The notes below the pieces were generated by a model. That model saw only the letters and a list, made by a program, of their open reading frames with translations, was not told the origin of the DNA and made no database searches. From an uncultured Aurantimicrobium sp. (GTDB taxonomy: Bacteria; Actinomycetota; Actinomycetes; Actinomycetales; Microbacteriaceae): a stretch of 32,318 nucleotides of DNA. Location: assembly GCF_936931525.1 (NCBI RefSeq), contig NZ_CAKZII010000091.1, positions 1-32,318 of the forward strand, written 5' to 3'. Of this stretch, positions 11,064 to 32,318 are shown in pieces; position 1 is the stretch's first letter; every line of letters starts with the position of its first letter. The position numbers were made by a program, and so were the translations under genes.

Positions 11064-11966
11064 CTAGAGAATTGGAAAACGGCCAGCTTTGGTCATGCGA
11101 GCCACGGTAAGCCAGCGCATACCGACGCGGCCTCCAGGATTTTCACGCCAACCTTCGACCCAGCCTGAAAACCACGGCTTCAAACCTGCACCACGGTTCC
11201 GAAGTGAGCGCACTAACTGAACCCCCGTCCAGGAGAGCACATAGAACGGAACCAGAACCCACGGAAGGTTGCGCTTGGCCAACCACACCCGGTTTCGAGC
11301 ATTGAGGCGGTAGTAGGTTTCGTGTCTGGTGGGGCTGGTGACCGGGTGGTGGACCACCATGTCACCGGCGTACCACACCGTTTTTCCTGCGTTCCATACT
11401 CGCCACGCAAGCTCAATTCCCTCGTGGGCATAGAAGTAGGGATCTCCCCAGCCGCCGATGTCTTCGAAGACACGTGTGGGCATCAACACCGCTGCTTCCA
11501 GCACGGAGAACACGTAGCTGGAGTCGGTCGCCTCTCCTTTGCGTAAGCGAGGAATCCAGCGACGCGGTGTCGTTTTGCCCGTTGGATCTGTGATTCGTGG
11601 CTGAATCAAACCCAGCGAAGAATCTGCGTGGAGCTTTCTAATGCCTTCGGACAGGAAGAGTGGATCCGCCAACTCGGCATCATCGTCGAGGAAGAAGATG
11701 TATTCGCCGGAAACCTTGGCGGCGCCGGCATTGCGACCGGCAGGAATACCTAAGTTTTCTGGAAGAAAAAGACCACGAACCCCAGCAGAGAGAAATTCAG
11801 GTCGCCAGCCATTACCCACCACCACAATGTCAAGGATCACAAGTTGTTGAGCGAGCACGCTCTTGAGGGCGCGGGAAAGATCTTCAGGGCGCTGTCCCAT
11901 CGTGAGCACAACGACGCCCACACGAGGTCGAACGCCGATTTCTGAGTGACTAGGCAGCCCGGACAC
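11064..11966 (-). CDS. Glycosyltransferase family 2
   Basis: 'VGVVVLTMGQRPEDLSRALKSVLAQ...', DxD-like 'YIFFLDDDAELADP', 'YFYAHEGIELAWRVWNAGKTVWY'. Confidence 0.85.
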   Translation of the reverse strand: MSGLPSHSEIGVRPRVGVVVLTMGQRPEDLSRALKSVLAQQLVILDIVVVGNGWRPEFLSAGVRGLFLPENLGIPAGRNAGAAKVSGEYIFFLDDDAELADPLFLSEGIRKLHADSSLGLIQPRITDPTGKTTPRRWIPRLRKGEATDSSYVFSVLEAAVLMPTRVFEDIGGWGDPYFYAHEGIELAWRVWNAGKTVWYAGDMVVHHPVTSPTRHETYYRLNARNRVWLAKRNLPWVLVPFYVLSWTGVQLVRSLRNRGAGLKPWFSGWVEGWRENPGGRVGMRWLTVARMTKAGRFPIL

Positions 11967-25641: not shown

Positions 25642-27873
25642 CTAGCGTGCGAATCTGCGAAGACGCAGTGAATTGAGCACAACGAACAAACTCGAGAACG
25701 CCATGGCTGCTCCAGCAAGCATCGGGTTCAAGAAACCAAGTGCCGCCAGCGGAATTGCCGCGACGTTATAAGCAAATGCCCAGAACAGGTTGCCGTGAAT
25801 AATCCTCAATGTTCTGCGAGACAGTTCGATGGCATCGACGGCAGCAGACAAGGTTCCACGGACCAAGGTGATGTCGCTTGCGGCGATGGCCACGTCTGTT
25901 CCGGTACCCATCGCAATGCCTAGATCAGCCTGTGCCAGCGCGGCGGCATCATTGACGCCGTCCCCGACCATGGCCACACGCTTGCCTTCAGCTTGGAAGC
26001 CCTTGACTGCCTCGACCTTATTTTCAGGACTTGCTCCTGCAATCACGCGAGAAATACCCACTTCTGTGGCAATAGCGCGGGCAGCATCTTCATGATCGCC
26101 CGTCAGCAGGACAACGTCGAGACCGAGTTCGCGGAGGCGAGAAATAGCCTGAGCAGAATCTTCCTTGATGGTGTCGGCGACGGTGATGATGGCACGTACC
26201 TCACCGTCCCATCCCGCTAAGACAGTCGTTGCCCCCGTTGAGCGAGCCGCAGCCAGCACTTCACGTTGCTGGGAAGAGAGCTCAAGGGCATTGTCTTCCA
26301 TCCACTGCTGGGTCCCCACCGAAAGAGTGATGCCTTCAACAACACCGTGCACACCGTGCCCTGCTACAGATCGGAACTCAGAGACAACGGGAAGTGTTTC
26401 TTGTGCTTCTCCCGTTACGTGGGACACGATTGCCTTCGCAATGGGGTGTTCGGAGCCGAATTCCAACGCAGCTATTCGCTTGAGTGCTGCTGAGTAATTC
26501 TCATCTTCCAGATAAACATCTCTCACCGTCATCTTGCCGGAGGTGATTGTTCCGGTTTTATCGAGAATGACGGTGGTGATGCGAGAAGAACTTTCAATCG
26601 CATCAGGACCAGAGATGATGATGCCCATCTGGGCGGCACGTCCCGTGCCCACCATCAGTGCAACTGGTGTGGCAAGCCCAAGTGCACACGGGCACGCGAT
26701 AACGAGGACAGCAATGCCTGCCGTAAAGCCCACAGCTAGCGGCGCACCAGCTATCACCCACCCGATGACGGTAACTCCAGCGATGCCGACCACGATCGGC
26801 ACAAAGACGGCAGAAATTCGGTCAGCAAGCCTCTGCACGGCTGCCTTATGAAGCTGCGCGTCCTCGACAAGGGCAGCCAACTGAGCAATACGAGTGTCCT
26901 GGCCAACCTCAGTGGCACGAACCACAAGCTTTCCATCCAATGCGATGGTGGATCCGGTAACTCGTGATGTCACCGTGACCTCAACCGGAAGGCTTTCCCC
27001 CGTGAGAGCGCTTTCATCGACGGCAGCTCGACCCTCGAGGACGACTCCGTCCGTTGCAATGATTTCACCCGGACGAACAACAAAGACATCCCCTACGTGA
27101 AGATCAGATGTGGAAATTCGTTCTTCAACACCATCCCGAAGTCGAGTGACTTCTGTGGCTTTCAGCTCCCCCAGTGCACGCAGTGCAGCACCGGCACTCC
27201 GTTGTGACTTCTCCTCGAGGTAGCGCCCGAGCAAAAGGAACGTGGTGACACCAGCGGCAGCTTCGAAATAGATATTGTGCGTGGGGTCTGCCTGCCAGGC
27301 AAAGAGTTCCATGCTGTGGTGCATGTGGGGATCCCCGGCAGCGCCAAAGAAAAGGGCATAGACAGACCAGCCGTAGGCAGCAAAAGTACCCAGCGTAATC
27401 AGGGTGTCCATGGTCAGAGTGCCGTGGCGAAGATTGATAAATGTCGCCCGGTGGAAAGGAAGACCGCACCAGAACACGACGGGTGTGGTCAATAACAGTG
27501 AGATCCACTGCCAATACGTGAACTGCCAGGCTGGAACCATCGCGAGCACAATGACTGGGACAGTCAGGAAGATGGCAATGACCAGGCGCTCGAGCAACGT
27601 GACTTTGCCCGCTTTGCCTTCTTCTAACTCAGCTTCGCTGGGCTTGGCCACCTGGGGCAATGTTGCGGTGTATCCGAGCTTGGTTACCTGCTGCACCAGC
27701 TGTTCTTCACTGATGTTGGACGGGAATTCAACCTTGGCGCTGTGCATAGCGAGGTTCACCGCCGCAGTGACGCCGGGAAGTTCAGTGAGGCTTTTTTCAA
27801 CGCGGGCAACACAGCTCGAGCACGTCATTCCCTCAACACCCAAGACGATGGTTGATGTGGTCTGGCTAGCCAT
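25642..27873 (-). CDS. copA: Heavy-metal (copper) translocating P1B-type ATPase
   Basis: HMA 'GMTCSSCVARVEKSL', 'CPCALGLATP', 'DKTGTIT', 'MVGDGVNDAAALAQADLGIAMG'. Start at MASQTT with upstream SD-like purine run; ORF extends to 27945. Confidence 0.92.
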   Translation of the reverse strand: MASQTTSTIVLGVEGMTCSSCVARVEKSLTELPGVTAAVNLAMHSAKVEFPSNISEEQLVQQVTKLGYTATLPQVAKPSEAELEEGKAGKVTLLERLVIAIFLTVPVIVLAMVPAWQFTYWQWISLLLTTPVVFWCGLPFHRATFINLRHGTLTMDTLITLGTFAAYGWSVYALFFGAAGDPHMHHSMELFAWQADPTHNIYFEAAAGVTTFLLLGRYLEEKSQRSAGAALRALGELKATEVTRLRDGVEERISTSDLHVGDVFVVRPGEIIATDGVVLEGRAAVDESALTGESLPVEVTVTSRVTGSTIALDGKLVVRATEVGQDTRIAQLAALVEDAQLHKAAVQRLADRISAVFVPIVVGIAGVTVIGWVIAGAPLAVGFTAGIAVLVIACPCALGLATPVALMVGTGRAAQMGIIISGPDAIESSSRITTVILDKTGTITSGKMTVRDVYLEDENYSAALKRIAALEFGSEHPIAKAIVSHVTGEAQETLPVVSEFRSVAGHGVHGVVEGITLSVGTQQWMEDNALELSSQQREVLAAARSTGATTVLAGWDGEVRAIITVADTIKEDSAQAISRLRELGLDVVLLTGDHEDAARAIATEVGISRVIAGASPENKVEAVKGFQAEGKRVAMVGDGVNDAAALAQADLGIAMGTGTDVAIAASDITLVRGTLSAAVDAIELSRRTLRIIHGNLFWAFAYNVAAIPLAALGFLNPMLAGAAMAFSSLFVVLNSLRLRRFAR

Positions 27874-27941
27874 AGCTACCTCATTCCTCCATCTTTCATA
27901 ACGTCTGATGGTTCCAGAGTATTCCTCCCTCACACAAGAAA

Positions 27942-27965
27942 ACACCGCCCCCGAAGGGGCGGTGT
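27942..27965 (-). terminator. Intrinsic terminator between the Gly/His-rich gene and copA
   Basis: Perfect stem ACACCGCCCC-cgaa-GGGGCGGTGT, followed on the minus strand by TTTTCTT. Confidence 0.88.
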
Positions 27966-27979
27966 CTCAGCTAGTGCGA

Positions 27980-28474
27980 CTAGTTAGTCGTTGCGGGAGC
28001 TGGTGCTGTGGTGGGGTAACCCTCAGGAATGATGTCGTTACCGTTTGCATCGTGCTCGTGAGGAACGTTGCCGGGCATTGAGCCATCAGCTTCGAGACCA
28101 CCCTGCGGTCCGCCTGCCATCTCGCCCTTGGGACCGTGACCGCGCTTTCCTTCATGGCCTTCTCCGCCGCCCTGGGGACCGCCTTCACCCATTTCAATGT
28201 GTGCAGGAGCTTGTCCAGCAGCCAGTGGTCCACCAGCGTGACCGATCACGTTAGCGACAGCAATGCCGCTTCCGAATACACCGGCCAAGAGAGCAACGCT
28301 TGCTGCGGAGATACCGATGATTGCACCGGTGCCGAGGCGACGCTTGGAGCGGGCTTCAGCGATGGGTGTTACCGGAGTTTCGGTTTCTTCAGCTGCAGCT
28401 TCGGGGGTGTACTCAGCAGGAGTCTGAGTTGCCTCTGCGTTGTCGAGGTTGTCGTTGTTGTCGTTCTTTGGCAT
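27980..28474 (-). CDS. Membrane-anchored Gly/His/Met-rich protein, unknown function
   Basis: AAGGAGG SD 7 nt before ATG at 28474. One TM ('GTGAIIGISAASVALLAGVFGSGIAVA') then 'HIEMGEGGPQGGGEGHEGKRGHGPKGEMAGGPQGG'. Confidence 0.75.
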   Translation of the reverse strand: MPKNDNNDNLDNAEATQTPAEYTPEAAAEETETPVTPIAEARSKRRLGTGAIIGISAASVALLAGVFGSGIAVANVIGHAGGPLAAGQAPAHIEMGEGGPQGGGEGHEGKRGHGPKGEMAGGPQGGLEADGSMPGNVPHEHDANGNDIIPEGYPTTAPAPATTN

Positions 28475-28543
28475 CTGCATGCCTCCTTACGTTCGTTTTG
28501 TGTGGTGGCCTTGTGGCCGGTAATTACACACTGGAGAACGAAG

Positions 28544-30086: not shown

Positions 30087-30124
30087 CGCCTGGAAGCTTG
30101 ATAGCTTCTATAGCGGGAGGAATG

Positions 30125-31117
30125 ATGTCGACAAAAAAGCGACTGTGGCTCAGCGGCGTCATTGCTGTTCTCATTTTCTTACCCGTTGTTTCGATCAGTT
30201 CTGCCCTGAATGCGGTGCAATCTATGCAGACCGCCTCTACTGTCGAATCTCTCGAGAAGGCTCTCAACGGTACAGAAGCTCCTCTCGATATTGCAGTTCC
30301 CACAGAAACACCAGTCGCGAGCCCCACCTCTCCGGCAACACAGAGCGCTCAGACAGGAACTTCGGGGGCATCAACATATCTAGCTCTGCTCCAAGAGCTC
30401 GTAACAGATGATTCCCCTGCCTCTCACAGCGGCTATAACCGTGACTATTTCAACGCATGGATTGATGCAGACGGAGATGGCTGTAATACCCGCGCTGAAG
30501 TTCTCATCATGGAGTCACAATCAGCCGTGACGACCCGTGGCCGATGCACGGTCAGCACTGGCCAGTGGGTTTCGGCCTATGACGGCACTACTTTGACCGA
30601 TGCTGGTGATCTTGACATTGACCACTTTGTTCCCCTCAATGAAGCCTGGGGTTCTGGTGCTTACGGGTGGGACAGTGCAACCAGAATTAATTTCGGAAAT
30701 GATCTGGGCTATGACGCTTCATTACTGGCAGTAACAGCGAGCTCTAATCGCTCCAAGAGCGATCAAGATCCTGCGCAGTGGATGCCCGCTAACCATGGCT
30801 ACTTCTGTGACTATGCCGCTACCTGGGTGGCTGTGAAGTGGCGCTGGAATCTCACCGTTGATTCGCTAGAACGCCTCACCCTGCAATCTGTCCTCAACGG
30901 TTGTTCAACAGTGAGTATTTCTGTTCCAGAGAAAGCTGTTGTCACCGCTGGAGTACCTGCCGAACAAGTTGCTCCTGTCAGTGATGGTGTTCTTGACCCC
31001 AACTATGGAACCTGTTCTGTGGCACAAGCCAATGGCGCTGGCCCCTACTACCAAGGCGTGGACCCGGAATATGACTGGTATCGAGACCGCGATAAAGACG
31101 GAATCGTCTGCGAGTAG
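30125..31117 (+). CDS. Secreted HNH-type (DUF1524/GmrSD-C-like) nuclease with C-terminal Excalibur calcium-binding domain
   Basis: N-terminal signal/TM, 'DADGDGCNTRAEVLI', 'DIDHFVPLNEAWGSGAYGW', C-terminal 'YDWYRDRDKDGIVCE'. GGGAGGA SD before 30125. Confidence 0.85.
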   Translation: MSTKKRLWLSGVIAVLIFLPVVSISSALNAVQSMQTASTVESLEKALNGTEAPLDIAVPTETPVASPTSPATQSAQTGTSGASTYLALLQELVTDDSPASHSGYNRDYFNAWIDADGDGCNTRAEVLIMESQSAVTTRGRCTVSTGQWVSAYDGTTLTDAGDLDIDHFVPLNEAWGSGAYGWDSATRINFGNDLGYDASLLAVTASSNRSKSDQDPAQWMPANHGYFCDYAATWVAVKWRWNLTVDSLERLTLQSVLNGCSTVSISVPEKAVVTAGVPAEQVAPVSDGVLDPNYGTCSVAQANGAGPYYQGVDPEYDWYRDRDKDGIVCE

Positions 31118-31128
31118 GAATTAACAGA

Positions 31129-31164
31129 ACAAGGGCCCGACCTCAAAAGAGGTCGAACCCTTGT
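31129..31164. terminator. Bidirectional hairpin terminator between convergent genes
   Basis: ACAAGGG-ccc-GACCTC-aaaa-GAGGTC-gaa-CCCTTGT. Confidence 0.75.
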
Positions 31165-31179
31165 GCGCTGTGTTTACGC

Positions 31180-31278
31180 TTACTTTCCGCCGCAGCACGC
31201 GCCGCCGCAGCAGCCGCCCTCTTCGCCGCCACCGAGGGTAGCGGAAGGGGTCTCAAGCTTGATGTTTGCGGTTGCCAT
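31180..31278 (-). CDS. 32-aa cysteine-rich small protein (MATANIKLETPSATLGGGEEGGCCGGACCGGK)
   Basis: Internal ATG at 31278 of the listed ORF 31180..31371 has a strong SD (GAAGGAG, 5-nt spacer) and is followed by TAA and a terminator hairpin. Confidence 0.75.
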   Translation of the reverse strand: MATANIKLETPSATLGGGEEGGCCGGACCGGK

Positions 31279-31403
31279 GTGGTCTCCTTCAGATAAGGGG
31301 TGACCGTCGGGGCTTTCGCCTGACCGGTCGAGGTCTATATCCAGTGTGCGCTTGTTTTCTCTGAACGTCAATGTGGGAAGTGGGTATGTCGCCCAGAGCT
31401 TAA

Positions 31404-31736
31404 TTACCCGTGCGAGCTACCCATCTCCAGAAGCACCACACCAATGATGATCAGGGCAAGTCCCAGGAAGCCCCAGACGTTGAGGTTTTCTTTGAACAAG
31501 AAGATACCCATAATGGCCACCAGCGCGGTTCCCACACCAGCCCAGATTCCATAGGCAACACCCATGCTCAGGCCTTTAGACAGGCCTAATCCTAAGGAAG
31601 CGAAGGCAGATAGATAGCCGACGAAAACAAAGATGGTCGGTATGACTTTGGTGAAACCTTCACTCATCTTGAGTGCAAGTGTTCCCACCACCTCGGAGAC
31701 AATCGCGAGGGCAAGAAGTAAGTATGCAACAACCAT
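31404..31736 (-). CDS. Small multidrug resistance (SMR, EmrE/QacE-like) transporter
   Basis: 110 aa, four TMs, 'AIVSEVVGTLALKMSEGFTKVIP', 'GVAYGIWAGVGTALVAIMG'. Confidence 0.9.
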   Translation of the reverse strand: MVVAYLLLALAIVSEVVGTLALKMSEGFTKVIPTIFVFVGYLSAFASLGLGLSKGLSMGVAYGIWAGVGTALVAIMGIFLFKENLNVWGFLGLALIIIGVVLLEMGSSHG

Positions 31737-31742
31737 GAGTTC

Positions 31743-31748
31743 AGCCTA
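31743..31748 (-). promoter_or_regulatory. Candidate -10 box TAGGCT for the leaderless SMR gene
   Basis: TAGGCT-GAACTC-ATG; its first three bases are the IclR stop codon. Confidence 0.5.
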
Positions 31749-32318
31749 ACTTGCACCGTGAATACGACGACTGAGCTCGTGCGCAGTGGCCGTCATTTCC
31801 GGCAGGAGAGAGTCAACACGTTCTTTGAAAGCTTCTGGGGTATTCAAACCCGCCGCAGAGAAAGTCACGGCGATACCTGCCGCCGGCCAACCAATGTGGT
31901 CCTTCACGACGACTCCTACTGACGCCAAACCCTCCGTGATCTCTCCACGTTCCAAGGAATAACCCTGAGTCGCGGCATCAGTGACGAGTGCCTTGAGCTC
32001 GCGGTAGGTGCGGGGTCCCGTGCTCGCCACTCCTGCACGCTGAGTAAAGACGATGCTGTCGGGATAGAGCGCTCGGAGTTGTGCCGGGGGCAGCGCCGAG
32101 AGCAGGGCGCGACCAGAAGCAGTGAGGTGCGCTGGAAGGCGAACACCGACGTCAGTAACAAGGCTGGGTCGACGTGGCGCACGTTCTTCCACGACGTAGA
32201 GAACATCAGTGCCGTGCAGCACGGCAAGGTGAGCAGATTCTCCGATGTGGTCCACCAGCTTTGCCAACAAAGGTGCGCCAAGACGTGTCAGCGGTTGTTG
32301 GCGAGTGTAGGCGGAGGA
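31746..32318 (-). CDS. IclR-family transcriptional regulator, partial (N-terminus beyond right edge)
   Basis: Frame stays open to the window edge. 'GVRLPAHLTASGRALLSALP', 'GYSLERGEITEGLASVGVVVKDHIGWPAAGIAVTFSA' is the IclR effector domain. Confidence 0.85.
   Translation of the reverse strand, partial: SSAYTRQQPLTRLGAPLLAKLVDHIGESAHLAVLHGTDVLYVVEERAPRRPSLVTDVGVRLPAHLTASGRALLSALPPAQLRALYPDSIVFTQRAGVASTGPRTYRELKALVTDAATQGYSLERGEITEGLASVGVVVKDHIGWPAAGIAVTFSAAGLNTPEAFKERVDSLLPEMTATAHELSRRIHGAS

Follow-up and report, generated by a model that had tools for sequence, protein, structure and literature searches.

The window, a 32,318-nucleotide stretch of DNA from an uncultured Aurantimicrobium sp., carries a very short peptide gene near one end, and the features of the locus and its surroundings are listed in Table 1. 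Read directly from the sequence, the ATG lies at 31278 and the TAA ends at 31180, and the Shine-Dalgarno (SD) sequence, spacer, start, 32 codons, stop and hairpin were all found where a preliminary description of this DNA had placed them. The 32-residue product contains four Cys (12.5%), has neither a signal sequence nor a hydrophobic leader, is presumably cytosolic, and is probably disordered. It is laid out as a conserved N-terminal segment, a variable linker and a Cys-rich end. The gene has probably been overlooked in Aurantimicrobium so far. The gene on its 3' side is convergent, so the window has no same-strand gene directly after the peptide gene.

Table 1. Features of the peptide-gene locus and neighbouring genes in the window.
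Feature	Position	Strand	Basis
32-codon ORF and stop, product MATANIKLETPSATLGGGEEGGCCGGACCGGK	31180..31278	-	read directly; conservation; dN/dS
Four-cysteine module, codons of the GGCCGGACCGGK tail	31183..31218	-	invariant Cys; module present on other proteins
SD sequence GAAGGAG, with 5-nt spacer ACCAC before the ATG	31284..31290	-	read directly
Predicted -35 element TTGACG	31366..31371	-	conservation
Predicted -10 element CACACT within conserved (A/G)GCGCACACT	31343..31348	-	conservation
Predicted 5' UTR from conserved AGAC start region	31279..31336	-	fold prediction only
Terminator hairpin, 16 bp	31129..31164	-	scored as terminator
SMR exporter, upstream	31404..31736	-	PF00893, 3.8e-25
IclR-type ORF, upstream	31746..32318	-	
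Convergent gene with GmrSD_C and Excalibur domains	30098..31117	+	
Copper-type P1B ATPase (CopA), possible functional partner	25642..27945	-	TIGR01511 above cut-off

The 32-residue ORF is a real, conserved protein-coding gene. Every one of the 8 Aurantimicrobium genomes searched has it (97-100% identity), and so do four other genera of the family (g13, g60, g68 and g104). The preliminary description had proposed looking in close relatives for homologues with a kept frame and Cys pairs, and these were found: a family-wide profile search gave 21 positives among 400 genomes, in 5 genera, all of them strong and none with intermediate scores. The same profile run against 297 genomes of the order and 395 of the class returned weak matches inside large frames and nothing better. 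The start codon, frame, SD and four Cys are kept across the homologues, with an AGGAG- or GGAG-type SD core at the same position in most relatives. In an alignment of 14 distinct sequences the four Cys are invariant in every one, as are I, K, L, E and P of an IKLE-P segment outside the tail. Conservation at the codon level, also suggested as a check, is evident from an excess of synonymous over non-synonymous change that points to purifying selection, with a dN/dS of about 0.08 between the window gene and three more distant species within Aurantimicrobium and a pS of 0.48 against a pN of 0.17 over nine representatives; the ratios of 0.77 and 1.03 seen in individual pairs come from too few changes to inform. 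For the flanking NmrA-type protein, the sampled positives form one group with moderate support (82/59).

The predicted promoter (TTGACG-N17-CACACT) and AGAC start region precede the gene in nearly all relatives, and the 17-nt spacing is kept in g1, g104, g68 and most of g13; the promoter motif is absent from one g13 genome and the -35 match is weaker in g60. A 63-aa ORF starting from TTG at 31371 was rejected as spurious because this TTG is part of the -35 box (TTGACG, 31371-31366); its frame extension is not conserved, and the earlier preference for the ATG at 31278 is borne out. The 5' UTR is predicted to be capable of forming hairpins, with modest z-scores of -0.3 to -3.2, and a hairpin comparable to the window terminator follows the stop in most relatives. 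The upstream genes differ among genera, being SMR in Aurantimicrobium, a protein we take to be SRAP-type from its MCGRY start in g104 and g13, and others in g68 and g60. With its own predicted promoter and terminator and with differing genes upstream, the peptide gene is therefore a single-gene, monocistronic unit. Membership of an upstream SMR operon was accordingly rejected, the neighbours varying from genus to genus, and the link to the SMR exporter that the preliminary description implied is accidental since the upstream genes vary while the peptide gene keeps its promoter.

The GGCGCACACTT motif was examined as the mark of a wider regulon; nearly all matches elsewhere carried 1-2 mismatches and were near background. 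A paralogue elsewhere in the genome was also rejected, the second promoter copy being a contig-end duplicate in the draft assembly. This copy (contig C27 of genome G000, 11393-11475) is 99% identical to the peptide-gene promoter region and probably derives from a second strain in the assembly. A search for a plasmid or phage origin of the locus gave no match, and a comparison with negative genera yielded no clean empty site because the flanking genes are not conserved there.

The preliminary description could name no family for the peptide, and our searches agree. No match was obtained with Pfam and NCBIfam profiles up to an E value of 10, metallothionein profiles included, nor with any PDB entry, and the absence of an Rfam match at the locus leaves an RNA-family reading unsupported. 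Searches of known families, solved structures and the literature found no direct precedent for the peptide. Partial likenesses exist to several known systems. Metallothioneins (SmtA/BmtA and mycobacterial MymT) are small, cytosolic and Cys-rich, a description that may also fit the window peptide, and MymT, the product of a small unannotated ORF, is required for copper resistance (PMC7558416). The window peptide differs from them in having only 4 Cys in 32 aa and no Pfam or NCBIfam sequence match, and its metal binding is putative. The unstructured, Gly/Cys-rich C-terminal tail of E. coli SlyD (2KFW, residues 153-196) contains CCGG motifs, as does the window tail, and binds Ni and other metals (PMC7055735); the window tail, however, is encoded as a separate gene, contains no His and is not attached to a prolyl isomerase domain. 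The FmdB zinc-ribbon proteins (PF09723/TIGR02605) end in GGGGCCGGGCCG, nearly identical to the window C-terminus, although this tail is all they have in common with the peptide, which lacks the CxxC...CxxC zinc ribbon (PF09723). In Aurantimicrobium itself, the tail of FmdB has Ser and no Cys. A tailed FmdB as the source gene within the family was rejected, as the matches were all weak (30-38%).

The GGCCGGxC(C/GC) module recurs on proteins of metal biology. A scan of the genome collection with a loose pattern gave at least 120 matching stretches; among the 120 matches listed, 102 lie within 18 residues of a stop, marking the tail as a C-terminal module, and at least 77 are on FmdB-type zinc ribbons. 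One Roizmanbacteria MAG (L101) encodes a CDGSH iron-sulfur protein with a C-terminal ...EEEEGGCCGGGCCGGKDEGHKH, and in a separate search a DsbA-like protein was found to carry the tail. The module also occurs at the N- or C-terminus of HMA chaperones (CopZ type, PF00403). In genome G079, from another genus of the same family, an HMA copper-chaperone-type protein starts with MLQNIEITTTPTDANEQAGGCCGGGCCS, the module being N-terminal, and a CopA 53% identical to that of the window is encoded about 2 kb away; this HMA protein has an N-terminal segment resembling NIKLETP. The HMA domain with GMTCxxC is present in the G079 fusion and in the tailed HMA proteins but absent from the window peptide. An order-wide pattern search, the source also of the G079 proteins and of the g39 peptides described below, found the module at the C-terminus of two more HMA proteins, one ArsD and one DUF3151 protein; several other matches resembled spurious frames in GC-rich DNA and were set aside. 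The G079 genome also encodes a ferrochelatase (L319) with the module near its N-terminus, in an extension MSETQMEQSGGCCGGGCCGG.

Similar peptides are encoded as free-standing genes outside the family. Ten genomes of genus g39, from another family of the same order, encode 33-36-aa Cys-tail peptides reading MAEK(T/Q)(N/S)I(D/E)LID...GGCCGGSCGCG(N/Q). Each gene has an SD, and a terminator-like hairpin was found wherever the flank was read; the loci L322-L327 and L331 have their own SD, a 5' GC-rich hairpin-like repeat and a terminator. Profiles of the g39 and window families matched with 98.0% probability (E 2.9e-13, 28 columns), the Gly/Cys tail carrying most of the score, and such Cys/Gly-rich stretches inflate similarity scores in comparisons of the tail. 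In a Demequinaceae MAG (L175, 2823-3341), an 18-aa ORF that carries the tail, MMSSATNGGGCCGGACGC, and a gene for an ArsR/SmtB regulator (NF033788 above cut-off) are arranged divergently, with dyad-like sites, TTGACATATGTCGAA, between the two. The window peptide shares the traits of the free-standing CCGGxC(C/GC) peptides, namely a short ORF, an N-terminal (N)I-x-L, a Gly-rich linker, a C-terminal GGCCGG(A/S)C(C/GC), and its own SD and terminator.

From these sequence comparisons we favour the reading, at a probability of about 0.62, that the peptide is a cytosolic, metallothionein-like thiolate metal binder, most likely for Cu(I), possibly docking via IKLE-P. The Gly-rich C-terminal CCGG(A/S)C(C/GC) tail would offer four thiolates to a soft metal ion, and thiolates spaced CC-x3-C(x)C in a flexible tail would be suited to one soft metal ion or to a small cluster of Cu(I). 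The small peptide could then buffer or shuttle metal in the manner of metallothioneins or the SlyD tail. The comparison supports a metal role, and from it we infer metal binding, the choice of Cu(I), buffering or shuttling, and docking. If one metal has to be named, copper is the best choice in view of the HMA fusions and the nearby copA; the alternatives are Zn(II) and a toxic soft metal. Outside the tail, the invariance of I, K, L, E and P hints at docking, and the IKLE-P segment may be a handle for a partner such as a metal exporter or chaperone; its conservation says that the peptide is more than a metal sponge. Against metal binding must be counted the four Cys, fewer than in characterised metallothioneins. 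The metallothionein-like binder of the preliminary description is thus the best supported of its options, given the module on HMA, ArsD, ferrochelatase, CDGSH, DsbA-like and FmdB proteins and its position opposite ArsR, but a match to known metallothionein profiles is absent. The likeness it drew to biarsenical-binding tags is loose. Both have paired Cys, but those of the peptide are spaced CC-x3-CC (CCGGACC) and those of the tag CC-x2-CC.

If the peptide does bind metal, few bacterial genes dedicated to metal binding would have a smaller product, and this one is conserved in freshwater Actinobacteria whose genomes are streamlined. The Cys tail seen on many uncharacterised proteins, FmdB zinc ribbons and copper chaperones among them, would then also gain a meaning. 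A wider and distinctly tentative proposal is that Actinobacteria possess a family of minimal, free-standing 18-36 aa metal-thiolate peptides that would act as two-part shuttles, a portable CCGGxC(C/GC) grip being joined to a short docking segment. Occurring alone in its own gene or as a fusion with copper chaperones, ArsD, ferrochelatase and zinc-ribbon proteins, the module might form a general intracellular metal hand-over element. Aurantimicrobium is genetically tractable (PMC11577799).

An unlikely alternative is a thiol-redox or sulfur/Fe-S peptide, whose vicinal Cys would alternate between the dithiol and disulfide states or serve partners docked at IKLE-P as a carrier of persulfide or Fe-S. 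The vicinal pairs themselves and the tail shared with DsbA-like, CDGSH and ferrochelatase proteins are consistent with this, and iron-sulfur biogenesis is a reported target of E. coli SlyD (PMC10653786). A CxxC redox motif is nevertheless missing from the peptide, genes for redox or Fe-S functions were not recognised in the flanks, and the HMA fusions and ArsR partner point toward metal ions. The invariance of I, K, L, E and P would also fit a regulator that binds a partner through this segment, the metal site (zinc) being merely structural. We consider this improbable, as the g39 peptides keep the tail exactly while their N-terminal segment becomes NIDLID, and in the 18-aa peptide the tail stands almost alone.

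It is very unlikely that the ORF is a leader that senses cysteine or copper and, through its translation, controls a downstream gene, the peptide itself being functionless. Precedents are the mycobacterial polycysteine attenuators and the CruR/CutF leaders, small Cys-bearing ORFs responsive to cysteine or copper, and the tandem Cys codons near the end and the hairpin directly 3' of the stop recall them. Such ORFs, however, lie upstream of the genes they control. A same-strand gene that could be regulated is absent directly downstream in the window and in most genera, and present only in g104, where an NmrA-type gene is next on the same strand; the gene that follows is convergent in Aurantimicrobium and in the majority of the other genera, leaving nothing there to regulate. 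The invariant amino acids outside the Cys run and the recurrence of the module within larger proteins also argue against a leader. The preliminary description also raised the option of a modified peptide precursor. The ORF would then encode the starting peptide of a ribosomally synthesised, modified natural product, its N-terminal half serving as leader and its Cys tail as core. The layout of conserved segment, variable linker and Cys-rich end would match, but the option is hardly tenable: it gains nothing because no modification enzyme was recognised nearby, in none of the genera were maturation or export genes recognised within ~8 kb, the tail is conserved more strongly than typical cores are, and the gene is monocistronic.

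To return to the favoured metal-binder reading, copA lies ~3.3 kb downstream of the peptide gene on the same strand in the window, and most of the loci that extend far enough have it at about +2.4 to +3.5 kb. Such closeness may simply reflect synteny within a single clade. Metal induction of the peptide gene is not indicated, since a search for an operator-like sequence common to its promoter and the copA block found none. Directly upstream of copA (27980-28480, minus strand) the window encodes a protein of 166 aa in which one membrane-like stretch is predicted and whose end is rich in Gly, His and Met. It has no Pfam match, is kept in most relatives, and is a possible copper-handling partner.
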